From Magnetococcales bacterium (lineage in GTDB: Bacteria > Pseudomonadota > Magnetococcia > Magnetococcales > DC0425bin3): DNA of 63,964 bases. Shown here in pieces: positions 7,221-22,620 of this stretch; positions within the stretch are counted from its first letter, which is position 1, and each line of letters begins with the position of its first letter. The stretch is from assembly GCA_015231175.1 (NCBI GenBank), contig JADGBZ010000013.1, positions 1 through 63,964 of the forward strand. Reading direction: 5' to 3'. The notes under the pieces are model-generated. The model saw only the letters and a program-made list of their open reading frames with translations. It was not told the origin of the DNA and searched no databases. The translations under genes were made by a program, and so were the position numbers.

Positions 7221-7430
7221 ATGCTACTCAAAAAAATACTCTCCCTCAAGGAATCCTTCGAGACGGACGGGCGCCAGCCCCTGGGTATTCGCCTGACGCC
7301 GGCACAAGCCAAGGAGATCCGTTGGGAGTTGCATCAACTCTACGGTTTCGATCCCGGTCCCGGCCTGATGCCGCTTTACGGCATGGAGATCCTCGCTACG
7401 GATGCCGACTCCATGACCTTGGAGGAGTGA
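7221..7430 (+). CDS. Small hypothetical protein
   Basis: 69 residues (MLLKKILSLKESFETDGRQP... ending DSMTLEE), soluble and acidic toward the C-terminus. I recognise no family. The composition and hydrophobic spacing (GIRLTPAQAKEIRWELHQLYG) look like a real protein. Against it, there is no clear Shine-Dalgarno, and its last 55 bases overlap the 3' end of the moaE-mogA gene on the opposite strand. Confidence 0.45.
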   Translation: MLLKKILSLKESFETDGRQPLGIRLTPAQAKEIRWELHQLYGFDPGPGLMPLYGMEILATDADSMTLEE

Positions 7431-8539
7431 TGGTCATGCCCTCCGCCGTCGGCCATGAGGCAAACATGGGGAACCAGATCGGCAACGGCATGGAAACTGT
7501 GAACGGCGCCACGTTGTGATCCGGGCAAGTTGACGATCAGGGTTTTGCCACGTATGGCCGCAACGCCCCGCGTCAGCACCGCAGAACGGACATGTTCGAT
7601 GCCGGCCTGTCGTATCAACTCGGGCAGGCCGGGCATCTCCCGATCGCTGACATCCCGGGTGGCTTCCGGGGTAACATCCCGCGGTCCGGGGCCGGTGCCA
7701 CCGGTGGTCAGGACCACATCGAGATGCTCGGCATCGGCCCACTGGCGCAGCAGTTGGCTGATCTGTGCGCGGTCGTCGGGCAGGATGGTGCGCAGCGCCA
7801 TGACACCACCCGTGGCGCGGACCAGCTTTTCCAGGGCATCGCCACTCCCGTCACGGGTTGCATTCCGGCTGTCGGAAAGAGTCAGGATGCCCACCCGCAA
7901 ACCGGCCCAGGAGGGGACGCCTCCCTGGGGATGACCTTGTTGGCCATGGGCATGGGCATGCGTACAGGCATGAGCATGGGCATGATCGTGGCCACGCTCA
8001 TGGGCGTGGTCATGTCCATGTTTGCACTTCTCTCCCATCTGGACATCCGATCCATGGACCTCCGATGCCTGGAGATCCGGTGTCATGGCATCTTGCCAGG
8101 CTTGGGCAGCCGCCTCACAACCCGGGCAGGTATCCACCCAACGGACACCCTGGCTGGTGATCTCCTTTTTCCAGAATGTGGCGTGCCGCTTCAAGTGGTC
8201 GATCAAAAACCGGCAGGCATCGAAGGCTGCGGCCCGATGGGCGGCAGCGGCCACGACGAGGACAATATTTTCTCCCAGGTTCAGACGCCCCACCCGATGC
8301 ACGATCGAGACCGCCTCGACCTGGAAACGGGTGCGGGCCATGGCAACGGTTTTTTCCAACTCCTTTTCGGTCATGCCCGGATAGTGTTCCAACTCCAAGG
8401 CAACCACCCGTGTATCCCCTTCGGTCAAATCCCGCACGGTGCCGGTCATGGTCACCACAGCGCCCACATGGGGATTGCCGGATGTCAGGGCGTGGATCTC
8501 CGCTGCAATGGAAAAATCCTCCTGCTGGATGCGAATCAT
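7376..8539 (-). CDS. MoaE-MogA/MoaB fusion with histidine-rich linker (molybdenum cofactor synthesis)
   Basis: 387 residues. Residues 1-150 are MoaE, the large subunit of molybdopterin synthase, with GTVRDLTEGDTRV, HRVG and the active-site FWKKE segment. About residues 215-358 are a MogA/MoaB domain, which adenylylates molybdopterin before Mo insertion, with ILTLSDSR, LTTGGTGPGPRDVTPEAT and VNLPGSQRGAV. Between them, residues 174-203 hold twelve histidines in HxH and HAHAH runs plus Cys172, and a CPGC motif lies at 139-142. A GGGHDHHSS tail follows the second domain. The fusion would place two consecutive cofactor steps on one chain; the linker looks metal-binding. It is the third gene of a mobA-moaD-moaE/mogA operon, 13 bases after moaD. 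Confidence 0.92.
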   Translation of the reverse strand: MIRIQQEDFSIAAEIHALTSGNPHVGAVVTMTGTVRDLTEGDTRVVALELEHYPGMTEKELEKTVAMARTRFQVEAVSIVHRVGRLNLGENIVLVVAAAAHRAAAFDACRFLIDHLKRHATFWKKEITSQGVRWVDTCPGCEAAAQAWQDAMTPDLQASEVHGSDVQMGEKCKHGHDHAHERGHDHAHAHACTHAHAHGQQGHPQGGVPSWAGLRVGILTLSDSRNATRDGSGDALEKLVRATGGVMALRTILPDDRAQISQLLRQWADAEHLDVVLTTGGTGPGPRDVTPEATRDVSDREMPGLPELIRQAGIEHVRSAVLTRGVAAIRGKTLIVNLPGSQRGAVHSFHAVADLVPHVCLMADGGGHDHHSSKVMESASVARISMP

Positions 8540-8552
8540 GCAGTCGCTCCCC

Positions 8553-8804
8553 TTACCCGCCGCTGACTGGCGGAAAAATAGCCACTTCATCGCCATCATG
8601 GACCGGGTCATCGGGAAGGGCATAGACCTGATTGACAGCCACGCGCAGGTGCGCCCCTGCCAAGGCCGCCGCAAAGGGGGCACCCCGTTGGCGTAAAAAG
8701 ACCAGCATGTCGGTAACGGTATGCACCGCTTCCGGCAGCGTGATCTCCATCTGTGCCTGGCCGATCGTTTCACGAACCCGGGCGAAAAACAAAAAATGCG
8801 CCAT
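8553..8804 (-). CDS. moaD: Molybdopterin synthase small subunit
   Basis: 83 residues with a ubiquitin-like fold pattern (MAHFLFFARVRETIGQAQME), ending in the obligatory double glycine (FPPVSGG). That C-terminus is adenylated and thiocarboxylated to donate sulfur to precursor Z together with MoaE. GGGAG lies upstream of the ATG. It begins four bases after the mobA stop and precedes the MoaE fusion, as expected for the synthase pair. Confidence 0.93.
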   Translation of the reverse strand: MAHFLFFARVRETIGQAQMEITLPEAVHTVTDMLVFLRQRGAPFAAALAGAHLRVAVNQVYALPDDPVHDGDEVAIFPPVSGG

Positions 8805-8808
8805 CGCA

Positions 8809-9441
8809 TCAACTCCCGCCAAACCCCCGTTCCAGCCAGCGACGTGCGGTGACCAGATCCTCCGGGGTATTGATGTTGAAAAAGGGGTCCGGGGCCCCCT
8901 CCCGGCAGATAAATTCCACAACACGATGGGGGTGATCGGCCAGCCAGACGCCCAAAGCCAAACGGCCTGCATCCAAGGCCAAGCTGATTTCAGGAAGGAG
9001 CTGCCGGGGCCACAGGCAAACCGTCGGATGCAAACGCCCTGCCGAAACCACGGTGACCGGTTGCGCCGGATCATCGGCTGCCAGGCACAATCTTTGCGTC
9101 AGGTCTTGCGGCAGAAAGGGGAGATCCACAGGAACGACGCATACCCAGGGCGCAGCCATGCAGGTCAGGGCCGTCTCGATCCCGGCCAGCGGCCCCATGG
9201 AACCGGTCCGCAAATCGGGCATGACCCGCATGTTGCAGGCGGCGAAACGCCCCGCATCACCGTTGGCGTTGATCGCCAGGGCGGCCAACTGTCCACGCAG
9301 GAGTTCGATCATACGCGCCAGGAGCGTGGCGCCCCCCAGATCGAGAAAGGCCTTCTCCCGACCCGCCATGCGCCGCGACAGCCCCCCCGCCAGGATGACG
9401 CCGCTGAGACTCTCGGGAGACGGTACACAATCAGGGGTCAT
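8809..9441 (-). CDS. mobA: Molybdenum cofactor guanylyltransferase
   Basis: 210 residues. The nucleotidyltransferase signature LAGGLSRRMAGREKAFLDLGG lies near residue 17, and a DLPFL metal-site motif follows (PVDLPFLPQDL). MobA attaches GMP to Mo-molybdopterin to make the bis-MGD cofactor of DMSO-reductase-family enzymes. First gene of the leftward mobA-moaD-moaE/mogA operon. The 293 bases upstream (9442-9734), shared with a divergent gene, hold no recognisable feature. Confidence 0.93.
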   Translation of the reverse strand: MTPDCVPSPESLSGVILAGGLSRRMAGREKAFLDLGGATLLARMIELLRGQLAALAINANGDAGRFAACNMRVMPDLRTGSMGPLAGIETALTCMAAPWVCVVPVDLPFLPQDLTQRLCLAADDPAQPVTVVSAGRLHPTVCLWPRQLLPEISLALDAGRLALGVWLADHPHRVVEFICREGAPDPFFNINTPEDLVTARRWLERGFGGS

Positions 9442-9734
9442 TCATCTCCCCGCAAAGGGTTGTCAAGCTTTGTCGTTACACAAGATCGATGGTCATGGGT
9501 TCCTCACCCTCACGGAACCAATCGTGGATCAGGATGTCTAAGAAATCAAGGCAGAACTGAATTTGGACCCGTTGCGATCACCTGTGCGTGCCGGTTCTGA
9601 CCGCCATTTTTCCAGCACGCGCCAACTTGACGACAAGAGGCACAAACACTCACATCCAGCAAAAGGGGGCAGGGAACGCCAGAGAGAACGATTTTCGTCC
9701 CGGATGGGGGTGGGTTGTGTCAGGAGTGTTCAAC

Positions 9735-10724
9735 ATGTTGCAAAGTCAGAGCAAGTCAAAACCCCATTCCGCTCCTGCCAGGGCACCCCTGCCCACGAAT
9801 GGGATACGGCCCACACCACATCCGCATGGCAACCCCGGGGTGCATCCCCCATCCATCCGTTCCAATCCCCCTGCGGACCGCGTCTCCCTTATCGAGGCAG
9901 ATCACTCTCGCGGTCCGCACTCCCACGACCGGAATCATCCACATCCCCAGCCCGGCCCGACCGCTCCCCATCACAAGGCCCAGCAGGTCACGCCACATCA
10001 GATCACGCCACATGAAGAGAGAATCCTTCACGAGGAGTTGGAACTTCTGGCACAAAAACACGCCGAACGAAAAAAACGGCAGCGCTTTCTTCTTCTGCTC
10101 TACGCTGCCATCCTCGTGCCGCTCAGCTTCTATGTCTATGCCCATTTCAAACTTTCGGACGAACCGCCGGAGGTGGCTGATACACCCCCGAAGGAGATCG
10201 TCCTGGAAAAAGCACCGGGATCCGCCCGGACCGCGATTCGGGTTGCCGGCGGTTTACCCAACCAGCCAAACGCGAACGAGCCGCTCCCCATGCGCATCCT
10301 GGAGTCCAAAGCGCACCCGCAAGATGCCCCTGACCCTGCTGCGACGCAAATCCAGCGCGTGGAGAGCGGTCCCCTCCTGGTCACCAATATCCATGCAGGA
10401 CGTGACTCGCAAGGCAAGATTCGCCTGCGTGGAGATCTGTTCAATCGTGGCCGCATCCCCATCAGTCAAGTCACGCTGCGCGCCCTGTTTCCAGACCAGG
10501 ATGGTTCTCCCCTGGTGGTCCAGCAGGTCAACCCCCTGATGACGCAAAGTTGGGTTCTCGGCGAAGTCAGCGCCCCCCTGGAGGCCGGAACTTCCCGATC
10601 CTTCGAAGCAGATGTCCCGAACGTTCCATCTGGTTGGGCAGGTCAAGTCGTCCTGGACATCACCCATTTTGACCTTGCCGAAGGCACAGGATCGATCACA
10701 GAACCCTCCCATAGCGACCCATGA
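9735..10724 (+). CDS. Single-pass membrane protein with His/Pro-rich cytoplasmic region and DUF3426-like periplasmic domain
   Basis: 329 residues. Residues 10-95 are low-complexity and rich in His and Pro (PHPHGNPGVHPPS, HSHDRNHPHPQPG). A charged helix and one transmembrane segment follow at about 118-138 (FLLLLYAAILVPLSFYVYA), then a periplasmic domain at ~220-315 (TNIHAGRDSQGKIRLRGDLF). That domain has the beta-sandwich pattern of DUF3426/FxLYD domains, though the usual zinc-ribbon at the N-terminus is absent. AGGAG precedes the ATG at 9735; a longer frame to 9588 is unlikely. Its stop overlaps the maf start (ATGA), so the two are co-translated. Function unknown. Confidence 0.75.
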   Translation: MLQSQSKSKPHSAPARAPLPTNGIRPTPHPHGNPGVHPPSIRSNPPADRVSLIEADHSRGPHSHDRNHPHPQPGPTAPHHKAQQVTPHQITPHEERILHEELELLAQKHAERKKRQRFLLLLYAAILVPLSFYVYAHFKLSDEPPEVADTPPKEIVLEKAPGSARTAIRVAGGLPNQPNANEPLPMRILESKAHPQDAPDPAATQIQRVESGPLLVTNIHAGRDSQGKIRLRGDLFNRGRIPISQVTLRALFPDQDGSPLVVQQVNPLMTQSWVLGEVSAPLEAGTSRSFEADVPNVPSGWAGQVVLDITHFDLAEGTGSITEPSHSDP

Positions 10725-11296: not shown

Positions 11297-11404
11297 TATT
11301 GGCGTTTCGGGCCAGAAGGTTCTGCACAAAACTCTCTGGCATATCTGACGGCCTGTGCCGGCGTGTCGTTTCCGGTCCGTGCCGCGATTCGTGATCTATC
11401 GCAC

Positions 11405-12280
11405 ATGGTGACCTGGATGAGTTCTTCCACCGCAACCGCCCACGCCTCTGCCAACGGGTTTCCGGGCAGATTTGTCGACACGACCTGGCTGGCCGAACGC
11501 CTGCAAGAGCCGGACTTGCGGATCGTCCAGGTGGGAGGCGATAATTTCTACGCCAACCTTCATATCCCCGGGGCGGTGCTGGTGCGTTATCGGGAGATCA
11601 TCACCCAGCGCGACGGCATCCCTGCCATGCGGGCGGATGCTGCCGATTTGGCGACCCTCTGCAACCGGCTGGGGGTGAATAAAACAACCCGGGTTCTGGC
11701 CTACGACGCCACGGGGGGGCTTGATGCGGCGCGCTTCATCTGGACCCTGGCCACCCTGGGACACGACCTGGGCGCCGTCCTGGATGGTGGCATGGGGGCC
11801 TGGTACCAGGAGAGCAAACCCGTGGCTCAAGCCGCTCCCGAAATCGCTCCCGCCGTATTTTCTCCATGTGATTCACCCCTGTGGAGTGCAACCCGGGATG
11901 ATGTCCTGGAGATCTCCCAAGGCAAGGAAACGGCCACTCTCCTGGACACCCGCAGCGAGGGGGAGTATCTCGGACGCAACCTGACCGGTCCACGCGGACA
12001 CATTCCCCGGGCACGGCATTTGGACTGGACCGAAACCCTGCGCAATCGGCAAATGCCGGTGTTGAAGGAGCGGGAACTTCTGCTGGAGTTGTTGGCCCTC
12101 CGGGGTTTGCGGGACTTTTCCCAACCGATCGTCGTCTACTGCCAAACTGCCCATCGGGCCTCGCAAACCTGGCTGCTGCTGCGTCATCTGGGCTTCACCT
12201 CGGTTCGGCTCTACGACGGTTCCATGGCCGAATGGGGTCTGCTCGGTCTGCCTTTGGTGACCGGACCTGATTCCCAGTGA
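11405..12280 (+). CDS. sseA: Sulfurtransferase (tandem rhodanese, SseA-like)
   Basis: About 291 residues with two rhodanese domains. The N-terminal one (FVDTTWLAERL...IPGAVLVRY) is inactive-type. The C-terminal one carries the persulfide loop cysteine in VVYCQTAHRASQT. This layout matches thiosulfate/3-mercaptopyruvate sulfurtransferases, although the loop does not exactly match either consensus. The start is uncertain: ATGs at 11405 and 11417 and a GTG at 11363 are all possible, and none has a strong ribosome-binding site. It lies 13 bases upstream of ffh on the same strand. Confidence 0.85.
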   Translation: MVTWMSSSTATAHASANGFPGRFVDTTWLAERLQEPDLRIVQVGGDNFYANLHIPGAVLVRYREIITQRDGIPAMRADAADLATLCNRLGVNKTTRVLAYDATGGLDAARFIWTLATLGHDLGAVLDGGMGAWYQESKPVAQAAPEIAPAVFSPCDSPLWSATRDDVLEISQGKETATLLDTRSEGEYLGRNLTGPRGHIPRARHLDWTETLRNRQMPVLKERELLLELLALRGLRDFSQPIVVYCQTAHRASQTWLLLRHLGFTSVRLYDGSMAEWGLLGLPLVTGPDSQ

Positions 12281-19052: not shown

Positions 19053-19141
19053 GTTCTATGATACCCCAACTTTGGAAGGCTGCCGGAAATGAAGCAAACG
19101 CATGTCTTATGATACCCCAACTTTGGAAGGCTGCCGGGAAT
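19040..19141. repeat. Two-unit 51-bp tandem duplication at the hypF/mddA junction
   Basis: Unit 1 (19040-19090) and unit 2 (19091-19141) are identical at 46 of 51 positions. Each unit, read leftward, contains the last codons of hypF with a stop (TAA in one, TAG in the other), a short spacer, and an ATG followed by codons for R-L-L-H-F, the mddA start. Unit 2 therefore encodes a decoy 15-codon frame (MRLLHFRQPSKVGVS) ahead of the true mddA start. Confidence 0.9.
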
Positions 19142-21422
19142 GTCGGATGGTTGCGCGATGTCTCGCCGCTGCCTCGACGATCTGACCAAAGGCTATGCCG
19201 CCATCATTACCGGGAAATTGGGTGTGCAACAAGGTGGAGAAACGATTTTCCGCCAAGAGGGCGATGGCGGATTCGGTCAACAGGCGATTCTGGAACACCC
19301 CACCTGTCAGTCCAACCCGACTGACACCCGTTTGCTCCCGCACCGTGCAGGCCGTGTGCAGGATGGCAAAGGCCAATGAGGCATGAAACCGGGCCGCCTG
19401 AACGTCGGGAGACTCCCGGGATCGATAAAGGGAGTGCAGCAAGGGCTCCCAGTCCAGTTCCAGGAGCCGTTGCGGCAAAAAACGGTAGGGAAGCGCCATG
19501 GCCTCGGTTCGGGTATGACCTGCCACGGCTTCCAACTCCATGGCTGCCTGCCCCTCGTAGGTAGCCACCATCCGTCCGAGGATCAACGCCGCCGCTGCAT
19601 CGAACAACCTGCCCACTGCATGGGTGGGCAAGGTGTTGATTCTCCTTTCCCAGGCTTGTCTGACCAGACCCCATTCAGGCTGGGGAGGACGCCACGACAA
19701 ACCGCACTCCCAGCACAATCCGGCTGCTGACCGCCAAATCTCGCGTGTCACCCGATCTCCGCCAGGCAGGGAGAATGTGCGCATGGTCGCCACGCGCTGC
19801 CAGTTGCCGGGCGTTCCCAACAAGGCCTCCCCCCCCCAAAAGGAGCCGTCGAAGCCCAAACCCAGGCCATCCCAGGTAAAAACCAGGGTCGGCTCGGTTT
19901 GATTCTCCACCTCCCCCAGCAGGGAGGATGCGTGCGCCACATGGTGCTGGACCTGGTATACAGGCAATCGTTGCCGCTCCGCCCATTGGACCGCCTGATA
20001 TTCAGGGTGCAGATCCACCACCAAACCCCGGGGCGTCACCCCGTAAAGGGTTTGCAGATCCCCGATCACCTGTTGAAACATGTCCAGCGCACGCGGTGAT
20101 TGTAAATCTCCGATATGTGGCGACATGACCACCCGCTTCTCCCAGGCCAGGGCAATCGTGTTTTTCATCTGGCTGCCGGTCGCCAGAATGGGCTCTTCCA
20201 GAGCAAACGGAAGCGAATACTCCTGGGGCGCCAGGCCTCTCCCTCCCCTGATCAATCGGGCCTGCCCGGCGATCACCCGAAACACCGAGTCATCTGCCGG
20301 ACGGCGAATGGGACGATCATGGTGCAAAAAGCCGTCGGCGACCTGGGCCAGGCGCTCCTCCACCTCCTCTGCCCGGGTCAGTACAGGGTCGCCACGCAAA
20401 TTGGCCGAGGTCGCCAATAGCGGCCTGCCAAATTTTTGCGTCAAGAGGTGGTGCAATGGACTGTAGGGGAGCATGACGCCCACCTCGTTCAGGCCCGGGG
20501 CAACCTCCAGCGGGAGCAGGGAATCCGCGCAACGGGGGAGAAGAACGATGGGACGAGCCGGATCGGTCAACATCGCCGCATGGGCCAGCTCCAGCGTGAC
20601 GACGCTGCGCACAAGATCCAGACCATCGCAGCCCGCTTCAGGAACCATCACTGCCAGGGGTTTGTCAGGTCGGGGCTTTTTTTCCCGAAGGCGCGCTATC
20701 GTTTCCCGTCGGCCCGCATCCCCCATCAAGTGGTACCCGCCGACCCCCTTGACCGCCACGATCTCCCCCCGCGCAAAGGCTGCGAGGCAAGCATCCAGCG
20801 CTGGGTCCGAACCTTGAACGATGCAACCGGTTGCGTGATAGGTCAAGCGGGGGCCACAATCCGGACAAGCCAGGGGCTGGGCATGAAAACGCCGGTCCAG
20901 GGGATTGTCAAACTCGGCGCGACAGGGTTCACACAATGGAAAACCGGCCATGGCGGTGTTGTTCCGATCATAAGGCAACCGGTCCATGATGGTATAGCGC
21001 GGGCCACATTGGGTGCAGTTGGTGAAGGGGTAATGGTAACGGCGTGCCTGGGGATCCGCCATCTCCTCGCGGCAAGCGGAACAGAGGGATTGATCGGGAG
21101 GGATGCATGGCCAGGTATCTCCCTTCTCCTGGCTGGGGAGGATGACAAATCCAGGTGCATCCTGGGGCAACGCCTCGGCAACCTTCTCCAAACCGGGACG
21201 GGCCAGAGGGGGATGGCGTGTCAAAAGATCCCGGATAAAACCTTCCAGAGCCTCAGGCCGACCTTGCACCCTGATCTCCACCCGGGAACCCGTGTTGCGA
21301 ACCCAGCCCGACAGCGCCCACTCCCTGGCCAGGCGAAAGACGAACGGACGAAACCCGACGCCCTGTACCTGACCGGTCAAGGTCAGGTGCCGAGCCAACA
21401 GGAGGGGCTTTTCATCAGGCAT
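19107..21422 (-). CDS. hypF: Hydrogenase maturation carbamoyltransferase HypF
   Basis: 771 residues in the full HypF order: acylphosphatase (QVQGVGFRPFVFRLA), two C4 zinc fingers (CSACREEM...CTQCGPRY and CEPCRAEF...CPDCGPRL), a YrdC-like domain (KGVGGYHLM, KPLAVMV, RPIVLLPR) and a Kae1-like carbamoyltransferase domain (QHHVAHASSLL, LTGGVFQNRLL). HypF makes the carbamoyl group that becomes cyanide on the NiFe-hydrogenase iron. No other hyp or hydrogenase gene is in the window. Its ATG overlaps the moeA stop by eight bases. A start eight codons earlier is possible. Confidence 0.96.
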   Translation of the reverse strand: MPDEKPLLLARHLTLTGQVQGVGFRPFVFRLAREWALSGWVRNTGSRVEIRVQGRPEALEGFIRDLLTRHPPLARPGLEKVAEALPQDAPGFVILPSQEKGDTWPCIPPDQSLCSACREEMADPQARRYHYPFTNCTQCGPRYTIMDRLPYDRNNTAMAGFPLCEPCRAEFDNPLDRRFHAQPLACPDCGPRLTYHATGCIVQGSDPALDACLAAFARGEIVAVKGVGGYHLMGDAGRRETIARLREKKPRPDKPLAVMVPEAGCDGLDLVRSVVTLELAHAAMLTDPARPIVLLPRCADSLLPLEVAPGLNEVGVMLPYSPLHHLLTQKFGRPLLATSANLRGDPVLTRAEEVEERLAQVADGFLHHDRPIRRPADDSVFRVIAGQARLIRGGRGLAPQEYSLPFALEEPILATGSQMKNTIALAWEKRVVMSPHIGDLQSPRALDMFQQVIGDLQTLYGVTPRGLVVDLHPEYQAVQWAERQRLPVYQVQHHVAHASSLLGEVENQTEPTLVFTWDGLGLGFDGSFWGGEALLGTPGNWQRVATMRTFSLPGGDRVTREIWRSAAGLCWECGLSWRPPQPEWGLVRQAWERRINTLPTHAVGRLFDAAAALILGRMVATYEGQAAMELEAVAGHTRTEAMALPYRFLPQRLLELDWEPLLHSLYRSRESPDVQAARFHASLAFAILHTACTVREQTGVSRVGLTGGVFQNRLLTESAIALLAENRFSTLLHTQFPGNDGGIAFGQIVEAAARHRATIRHSRQPSKVGVS

Positions 21423-22620
21423 AATCGATGAGCCAAACCTCAGCAATGTCTCCCATATTCATCTCCAGGGGGGATGGCGGCAATACGATGAAGGCATTGG
21501 CCCGGCTCATGCTGGTCAGCATGCCAGACCCCTGGGCCCCCGTGCTCTCCACCCAGGCGCCGTCGGCAGCAAAGTGGACCACACCCCGTTGAAAGTCCAT
21601 GCGGGTGTGTTTTTTGACCAAGCGTCCCCGCAAAGGCAGTTGCAGACAACGATCAGGCTCCGGTGCAGCCCCCATCATGCGCAGCAAAGCAGGCCGCACC
21701 AAGAGCAGAAAAACCGCCAGGCAGGAGACCGGATTGCCCGGCAGGCCGAAAAAAGCCGCCTTGCCCAGGCGGCCATAGGCCTGAGGTTTGCCTGGTTTCA
21801 TGCCCACCTTCCAAAAATCGATGACCCCCTCCTTGGCAAGAATTTCCTTGACCAAATCATAGTCACCAACGGAAACCCCACCCGTGGTGATGACCGCATC
21901 GGCAGAGGTGGAACCTTTCCGCAGCGCGGCCCGGATCTGTTCACGGTCATCCCGGACCAGACCCAGATCGATCACCGTGATACCCATGGCCTCCAGGGAG
22001 GCCCTCAAAGTGGTTCGATTGCTGTCGTAGACGTGGCCCGGCGCCAATGGGGCGCCAACCGCCTGGATCTCGTTGCCGGTGGAGAGCAAAGCCACCCGCA
22101 GGCGTGACATGACCATGATATGGGCAAAGCCCAGGGAGGTCAGCAGTCCCAGATCAGCCGGGGTGAGCCTGCGTCCCTGGGGGAAAACCTGCGTGCCGGC
22201 ACGAATATCCTCTCCAGCCCGGCGCAGGTTTTGGCCGGCACGTTGGCCAGCGGGTATCGTGACCCGGTCGGCCTCCCGGCGCGTCTCTTCCTGCATGACG
22301 ACACAGTCACAACCGCCCGGTATGGGTGCGCCTGTCATGATACGCACCGCCTCCCCGGATGCCAGGGGGCGATTGAGGCGGTTTCCGGCAGGCAGGTCGG
22401 CGACAACTGTCAGGGTCGTTTCATCGGTTGGCGACAAATCCGCCAGGCGCACGCCATAGCCATCCATGGCGCTGTTGTCATGATTGGGAACATCGAGGGT
22501 GGCCAGAATCGACGTGGCCAGAACCCGCCCCAAACCAGCCCACACATCAATCCGTTCTGTCCGGGTGATCGGGGCCACACCTGCCATGACCCGTTCCCGG
22601 GCCTCTGCAAACGAGATCAT
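21415..22620 (-). CDS. moeA: Molybdopterin molybdenumtransferase MoeA
   Basis: 401 residues with standard MoeA architecture. The N-terminal region has NSAMDGYGVR-type sequence (NHDNSAMDGYGV), and GAPIPGGCDCVVMQEE follows. The MogA-like domain carries TTGGVSVGDYDLVK and GMKPGKPQAYG, with LPGNPVSCLAVF before the C-terminal barrel. It inserts molybdate into adenylylated molybdopterin, the step after the MogA domain of the fusion at 7376-8539. Between a radical SAM gene (three-base gap) and hypF (overlap) on the same strand. Confidence 0.96.
   Translation of the reverse strand: MISFAEARERVMAGVAPITRTERIDVWAGLGRVLATSILATLDVPNHDNSAMDGYGVRLADLSPTDETTLTVVADLPAGNRLNRPLASGEAVRIMTGAPIPGGCDCVVMQEETRREADRVTIPAGQRAGQNLRRAGEDIRAGTQVFPQGRRLTPADLGLLTSLGFAHIMVMSRLRVALLSTGNEIQAVGAPLAPGHVYDSNRTTLRASLEAMGITVIDLGLVRDDREQIRAALRKGSTSADAVITTGGVSVGDYDLVKEILAKEGVIDFWKVGMKPGKPQAYGRLGKAAFFGLPGNPVSCLAVFLLLVRPALLRMMGAAPEPDRCLQLPLRGRLVKKHTRMDFQRGVVHFAADGAWVESTGAQGSGMLTSMSRANAFIVLPPSPLEMNMGDIAEVWLIDYA

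Follow-up and report, generated by a model that had tools for sequence, protein, structure and literature searches.

The synthesis of Moco passes through molybdopterin (MPT), which is made by MoaE together with MoaD and adenylylated by MogA, after which MoeA inserts molybdate. To our knowledge, the protection of the oxygen-sensitive MPT dithiolene before metal insertion and the physiological role of copper at this stage are still open questions, and a role of copper in bacterial MogA is not established. Two of the steps are carried on one chain in the eukaryotic Mo-insertases (gephyrin, Cnx1 and NIT-9), where a MogA-type G domain is fused to a MoeA-type E domain. The question of copper's physiological role was raised by the copper-containing, MPT-bound structure of Cnx1G (PDB accession code: 1uuy, described in PMC9458074), and product-substrate channelling has been reported for gephyrin (as cited in PMC11489736). 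A natural fusion containing MoaE is known too, the MoaX of Mycobacterium tuberculosis, but here the partner is MoaD; MoaX requires cleavage to work because the C-terminus of MoaD must be free (PMC4326299). In the open-licence literature we found no published description of a fusion between MoaE and MogA.

Such a fusion is encoded in the stretch of DNA considered here, 63,964 nucleotides from a Magnetococcales bacterium (hereafter the window). A preliminary description had named, besides the fusion itself, a linker with twelve histidines and a flanking CPGC motif, and all three are confirmed: the two domains are recognized by Pfam within one open reading frame, and the histidines and the motif lie as given below.

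7376..8539, minus strand: moaE-mogA fusion gene (ATG at 8539, stop at 7376-7378; 387 aa plus stop)
8135..8539, minus strand: MoaE domain, MPT synthase large subunit (aa 1-135)
8117..8128, minus strand: CPGC motif (aa 138-141), opening a predicted helix
7910..8092, minus strand: interdomain linker (aa 150-210)
7931..8020, minus strand: dense histidine segment (aa 174-203), 12 His in an HxH/HAHAH pattern plus one Cys
7460..7900, minus strand: MogA domain, MPT adenylyltransferase (aa 214-360)
7436..7447, minus strand: C-terminal GGGH (aa 365-368)
8553..8804, minus strand: moaD, sulfur-carrier subunit, directly upstream of the fusion, its stop 13 bases before the fusion ATG
8809..9441, minus strand: mobA, guanylyltransferase, upstream of the fusion in the same apparent operon
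21415..22620, minus strand: moeA, molybdenum insertase, the step after MogA and the genome's only other MoCF_biosynth domain

The coding part without its stop codon (7379-8539, minus strand) thus gives a single protein in the order MoaE, CPGC, disordered linker, MogA and GGGH tail. With moaD a separate gene here, no cleavage is needed for the MoaE-MogA fusion. The moeA gene lies directly downstream of the fusion gene in most members of the class; in the window, in contrast to most relatives, it stands apart, next to hypF ([NiFe]-hydrogenase maturation) on the minus strand, the two genes slightly overlapping (19107-22620). A sulfurtransferase with two rhodanese domains (11363-12280), about 2 kb from the mobA-moaD-moaE genes, is a candidate sulfur donor. 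The open reading frame at 9588-10724, which matches no Pfam family, carries a second histidine-rich stretch near its N-terminus (9 His in 40 aa), and its start is perhaps over-extended.

The assignment of the two domains rests on several lines of comparison. Pfam MoaE matches residues 4-118 (E 6e-38, 129.9 bits against a gathering score of 23.4) and MoCF_biosynth matches residues 218-355 (E 4e-27). A search of the source genome for further copies found no unfused moaE or mogA, so that the fusion protein is its sole MoaE and its sole MogA, and both halves must therefore work. In an alignment of 42 fusions (41 from Magnetococcia plus one from G048, a genome outside the class), the MoaE pocket residues R36, H101 and R102 and the lysines K117 and K124 are invariant, aligning with Arg39, His103, Arg104, Lys119 and Lys126 of E. 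coli MoaE. The first three form the anion pocket of the E. coli enzyme (PMC9916421). Equally invariant are the aspartates D255 and D288 of the second half, whose counterparts in E. coli MogA are the catalytic residues Asp49 and Asp82 (PMC9458074). At the Asp49 site the fusions have Asp and E. coli MoaB has Glu, and the second half is therefore MogA-type by its residues. It does not reach the NCBIfam equivalog cut-offs (119 bits against 158 for PRK09417; 107 against 222 for moaB_proteo) and passes the general domain model TIGR00177 alone, which leaves it MogA-like in residues and below the equivalog level. The closest NCBIfam entry to this half, the bifunctional MoaC/MoaB (PRK03604 / NF002947), has a MogA-like half with a GGGH C-terminus, but its N-terminal partner is MoaC, with no MoaE, while the N-terminal domain of the source protein is MoaE according to Pfam; at 128 bits the fusion stays far under the entry's 285-bit cut-off. 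The AlphaFold2 model, made from the 42-row alignment, is confident in both domains, where most residues exceed 90; in the linker, pLDDT stays below 50 over residues 162-177 and 179-205. Foldseek matches the domains to MoaB/MogA/Cnx1G (2is8, 1uuy) and to MoaE.

Is the fusion a product of the assembly, or does it exist in other genomes? It was matched in 43 of the 48 genomes of Magnetococcia (the magnetotactic-cocci group), and in every one of the 27 genomes with at least 90% completeness and at most 5% contamination. In the five genomes that gave no match, completeness is 57-77%; only a fragment was recovered from one genome of 82% completeness. Because both domains share one open frame in 41 of the 42 Magnetococcia genomes from which the gene was extracted, a one-contig genome included, an assembly or frameshift artefact is ruled out; the lone exception (G023, C156; L060 / L037), where the fusion runs across two separate frames, is a probable frameshift in a metagenome assembly. 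Neither of the circumstances that the preliminary description had held to be fatal is found, since the relatives are single-frame and carry the fusion, not separate genes lacking the histidines.

Among the matches listed from a sample of 398 Pseudomonadota, one fusion only was seen outside Magnetococcia, that of G048, the sole genome of its class; it is 46% identical, with both CPGC and GGGH present. No further MoaE-MogA fusion stands among the matches listed in about 350 other sampled Pseudomonadota, a search that covers those matches with the weak end excluded and that a very divergent fusion may have escaped. In the 78 genomes of the class of G170, which we take to be Zetaproteobacteria, moaE and mogA are separate, and a fusion in that class was rejected. 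An apparent fusion in G255 proved to be two adjacent genes, and the long MogA frames in the class of this genome were rejected as MoaE-MogA, the true fusions there being of the MoaC-MoaB type: in five loci of that class (L123, L125, L126, L133 and L134) a MogA/MoaB-like domain lies behind a MoaC-like domain, and L125 ends in GEGH. No relative of the fusion was found in viral contigs, and a plasmid origin was likewise discarded, as the best plasmid matches are separate moaE and moaB genes. One MogA of G170 (L073, C11:1-633) shares about 50% identity with the Magnetococcia domain and has the same GGGH end. At the edge of the contig, a short stretch containing Cys and His precedes it, the MoaE of that genome being separate on another contig; horizontal transfer of this MogA is possible.

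We turn to the function of the fused protein. With moderate confidence we read it as MPT synthase and MPT adenylyltransferase in one bifunctional enzyme, in which the dithiolene is channelled and a soft metal is probably bound by the linker. From what is known of the pathway, the MoaE half with the separate MoaD would convert cPMP to MPT, and the MogA half would convert MPT to MPT-AMP and pass it to MoeA, usually encoded next door, for molybdate insertion. The preliminary description had placed the two enzymes before and after sulfur insertion. This has to be corrected, as MoaE is itself the sulfur-insertion subunit and MogA adenylylates its direct product. Two consecutive enzymes on one chain suggest a direct hand-over of the fragile sulfur intermediate, possibly under the guard of a metal ion: the tether would hand the oxygen-sensitive dithiolene from the MoaE site to the MogA site with little release, and the disordered linker, which has CPGC where MoaE has its C-terminal tail, along with an excess of His and often further Cys, may hold a putative Cu or Zn near the hand-over point. 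Channelling is likely, given the order of the pathway and the analogy with gephyrin; metal binding and the identity of the metal are possible and have less support than channelling. Since soft metals are typically bound by Cys and His, and copper is present in a Cnx1G structure, a metal guard is an attractive hypothesis. The interpretation offered in the preliminary description is in this way partly supported, with shielding of the dithiolene plausible through channelling and a copper or zinc role of the linker compatible with the sequence data.

The linker is the part on which the metal portion of this reading depends. In the source protein, 12 His fall within 40 residues, the densest such run among the 37 open reading frames checked in the 64-kb window, whose other frames average 3.3% His. 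Shuffling the bases of this linker gives a mean of 2.3 His against the 13 observed, and 0 of 2000 shuffles reach 13. Class-wide, the linkers past the CPGC helix hold 325 His against 64 from shuffled bases (about 5-fold), and the excess is individually significant (p<0.05) in 31 of 39. Both codons are used (CAT 178, CAC 147), so that the excess is not one expanding DNA repeat everywhere. As to whether other fusions keep the histidine linker, the fusions are found throughout the class but the number of histidines runs from 0 to 40, with one sub-clade near the shuffle expectation; the linker itself varies from 10 to 127 aa, and taken in its wider definition it holds 1-40 His. In two members the linker is down to 16-17 aa and 3 His, and the closest relative, of the same genus (L020, G003 C19), has 127 aa with 40 His, largely HG/HD repeats. 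An HTH[APD] motif or a Cys/His cluster follows CPGC in 34 of 42 fusions. With the count this patchy, the cluster this frequent and a relative at 40 His, the Cys/His-rich linker is a class trait and the number twelve is local. The conserved elements are CPGC and the terminal GxGH, not the density of histidine.

This variability gives some weight to a simpler explanation, which we regard as possible though rather unlikely: that the fusion is a plain tether serving channelling or a fixed stoichiometry, its linker a flexible, soluble, loosely constrained spacer in which His drifts through HA, HG and HD repeats. Length and His content indeed change fast, with at least 11 switches across the threshold of six His on a tree from which the linker was left out; some linkers, such as that of L020, are near-perfect dipeptide repeats, and about nine other (HX)5 DNA sites occur in the source genome. 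A free drift does not account, however, for His being the commonest linker residue across Magnetococcia, at about five times the shuffled level and from both codons, for the lack of substitute repeats built from other residues, or for a CPGC that is nearly invariant.

That motif is kept in 41 of the 42 extracted Magnetococcia fusions and in G048, and is found in 0 of 46 MoaE of other groups. In alignment it replaces the RESD (140-143) of E. coli MoaE, and AlphaFold2 places it at the start of a predicted helix (139-151). In about 350 genomes outside Magnetococcia, the DNA pattern for W-V-x-x-C-P-G-C with a following Ala-like codon occurs in 3 more, and in each of them it lies either on a different contig from the MoaE match or some 500 kb away from it. 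The only extracted fusion lacking CPGC (L028, G025 C723), by a true loss or perhaps through an assembly problem, has a linker of 10 aa with one His and no His segment. The tail named in the preliminary description, GGGHDHH (aa 365-371, with 16 more residues to the protein end), is present, and its GGGH is conserved (GxGH in 42/42 fusions, with H368 invariant), but DHH is private to the source protein, nearly all relatives ending a few residues past GxGH. Since GxGH is also carried by MogA-type proteins unfused to MoaE (a MogA from the class taken as Zetaproteobacteria and one MoaC-MoaB-type protein), it either predates the fusion or is unconnected with it, and GGGH was rejected as a fusion-specific site.

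A bolder form of the metal guard would bring the linker's Cys/His cluster together with CPGC and the C-terminal GxGH in one Cu(I)/Zn site, capping the MPT dithiolene as it passes from MoaE to MogA. If true, this site would be a metal chaperone built into the Moco pathway, guarding the intermediate until molybdate arrives. We hold it to be speculative and unlikely in this complete form. The very variable number of His, and G025 with neither CPGC nor a His segment, speak against the metal reading, and where a CxxC opens a helix, a redox or structural function is just as possible. An oxidized CPGC disulfide that shuts off MPT synthesis, with the His segment incidental, would suit the position of the motif at a predicted helix start, like that of thiol-redox CxxC sites, and its replacement of the E. 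coli RESD tail; such a switch appears improbable, as it leaves the His excess unexplained and no thioredoxin-like fold is among the Foldseek matches listed. Very improbable is a store in which, on the pattern of HypB, UreE and SlyD, the His segment serves general homeostasis by keeping Ni, Zn or Cu and is merely parked on the enzyme: for all its resemblance to the stretches of nickel chaperones and the presence of hypF beside moeA in the same window, storage requires no Moco enzyme, CPGC is located in the MoaE tail outside the segment, and no metal-homeostasis gene is seen beside the fusion.

The channelling enzyme that we favour can finally be set beside the known systems. By sequence and fold, the nearest solved structures are those of Thermus thermophilus MoaB (2is8) and Burkholderia MoaE (7l2a, 7l32), which, unlike the fusion, are separate proteins without a linker. 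The nickel chaperones HypB, UreE and SlyD carry a His-rich stretch of variable length on a cofactor-maturation protein, as does the fusion, but they are unrelated enzymes with no CPGC-MoaE context, and the likeness is one of composition. As in gephyrin, Cnx1 and NIT-9, consecutive Moco enzymes are fused through a linkage region, and a trimeric MogA-type domain is joined to a dimeric partner; those proteins, however, join MogA to the next step, MoeA, and are without a MoaE CPGC tail, whereas here MogA is joined to the previous step, MoaE. A natural single-chain MoaE-MogA, kept class-wide together with its conserved CPGC and a linker rich in His, allows dithiolene protection and the role of copper to be tested directly on a single purified protein, and stands beside gephyrin/Cnx1 as a second, independent case of tethered successive Moco steps, one step earlier in the pathway.
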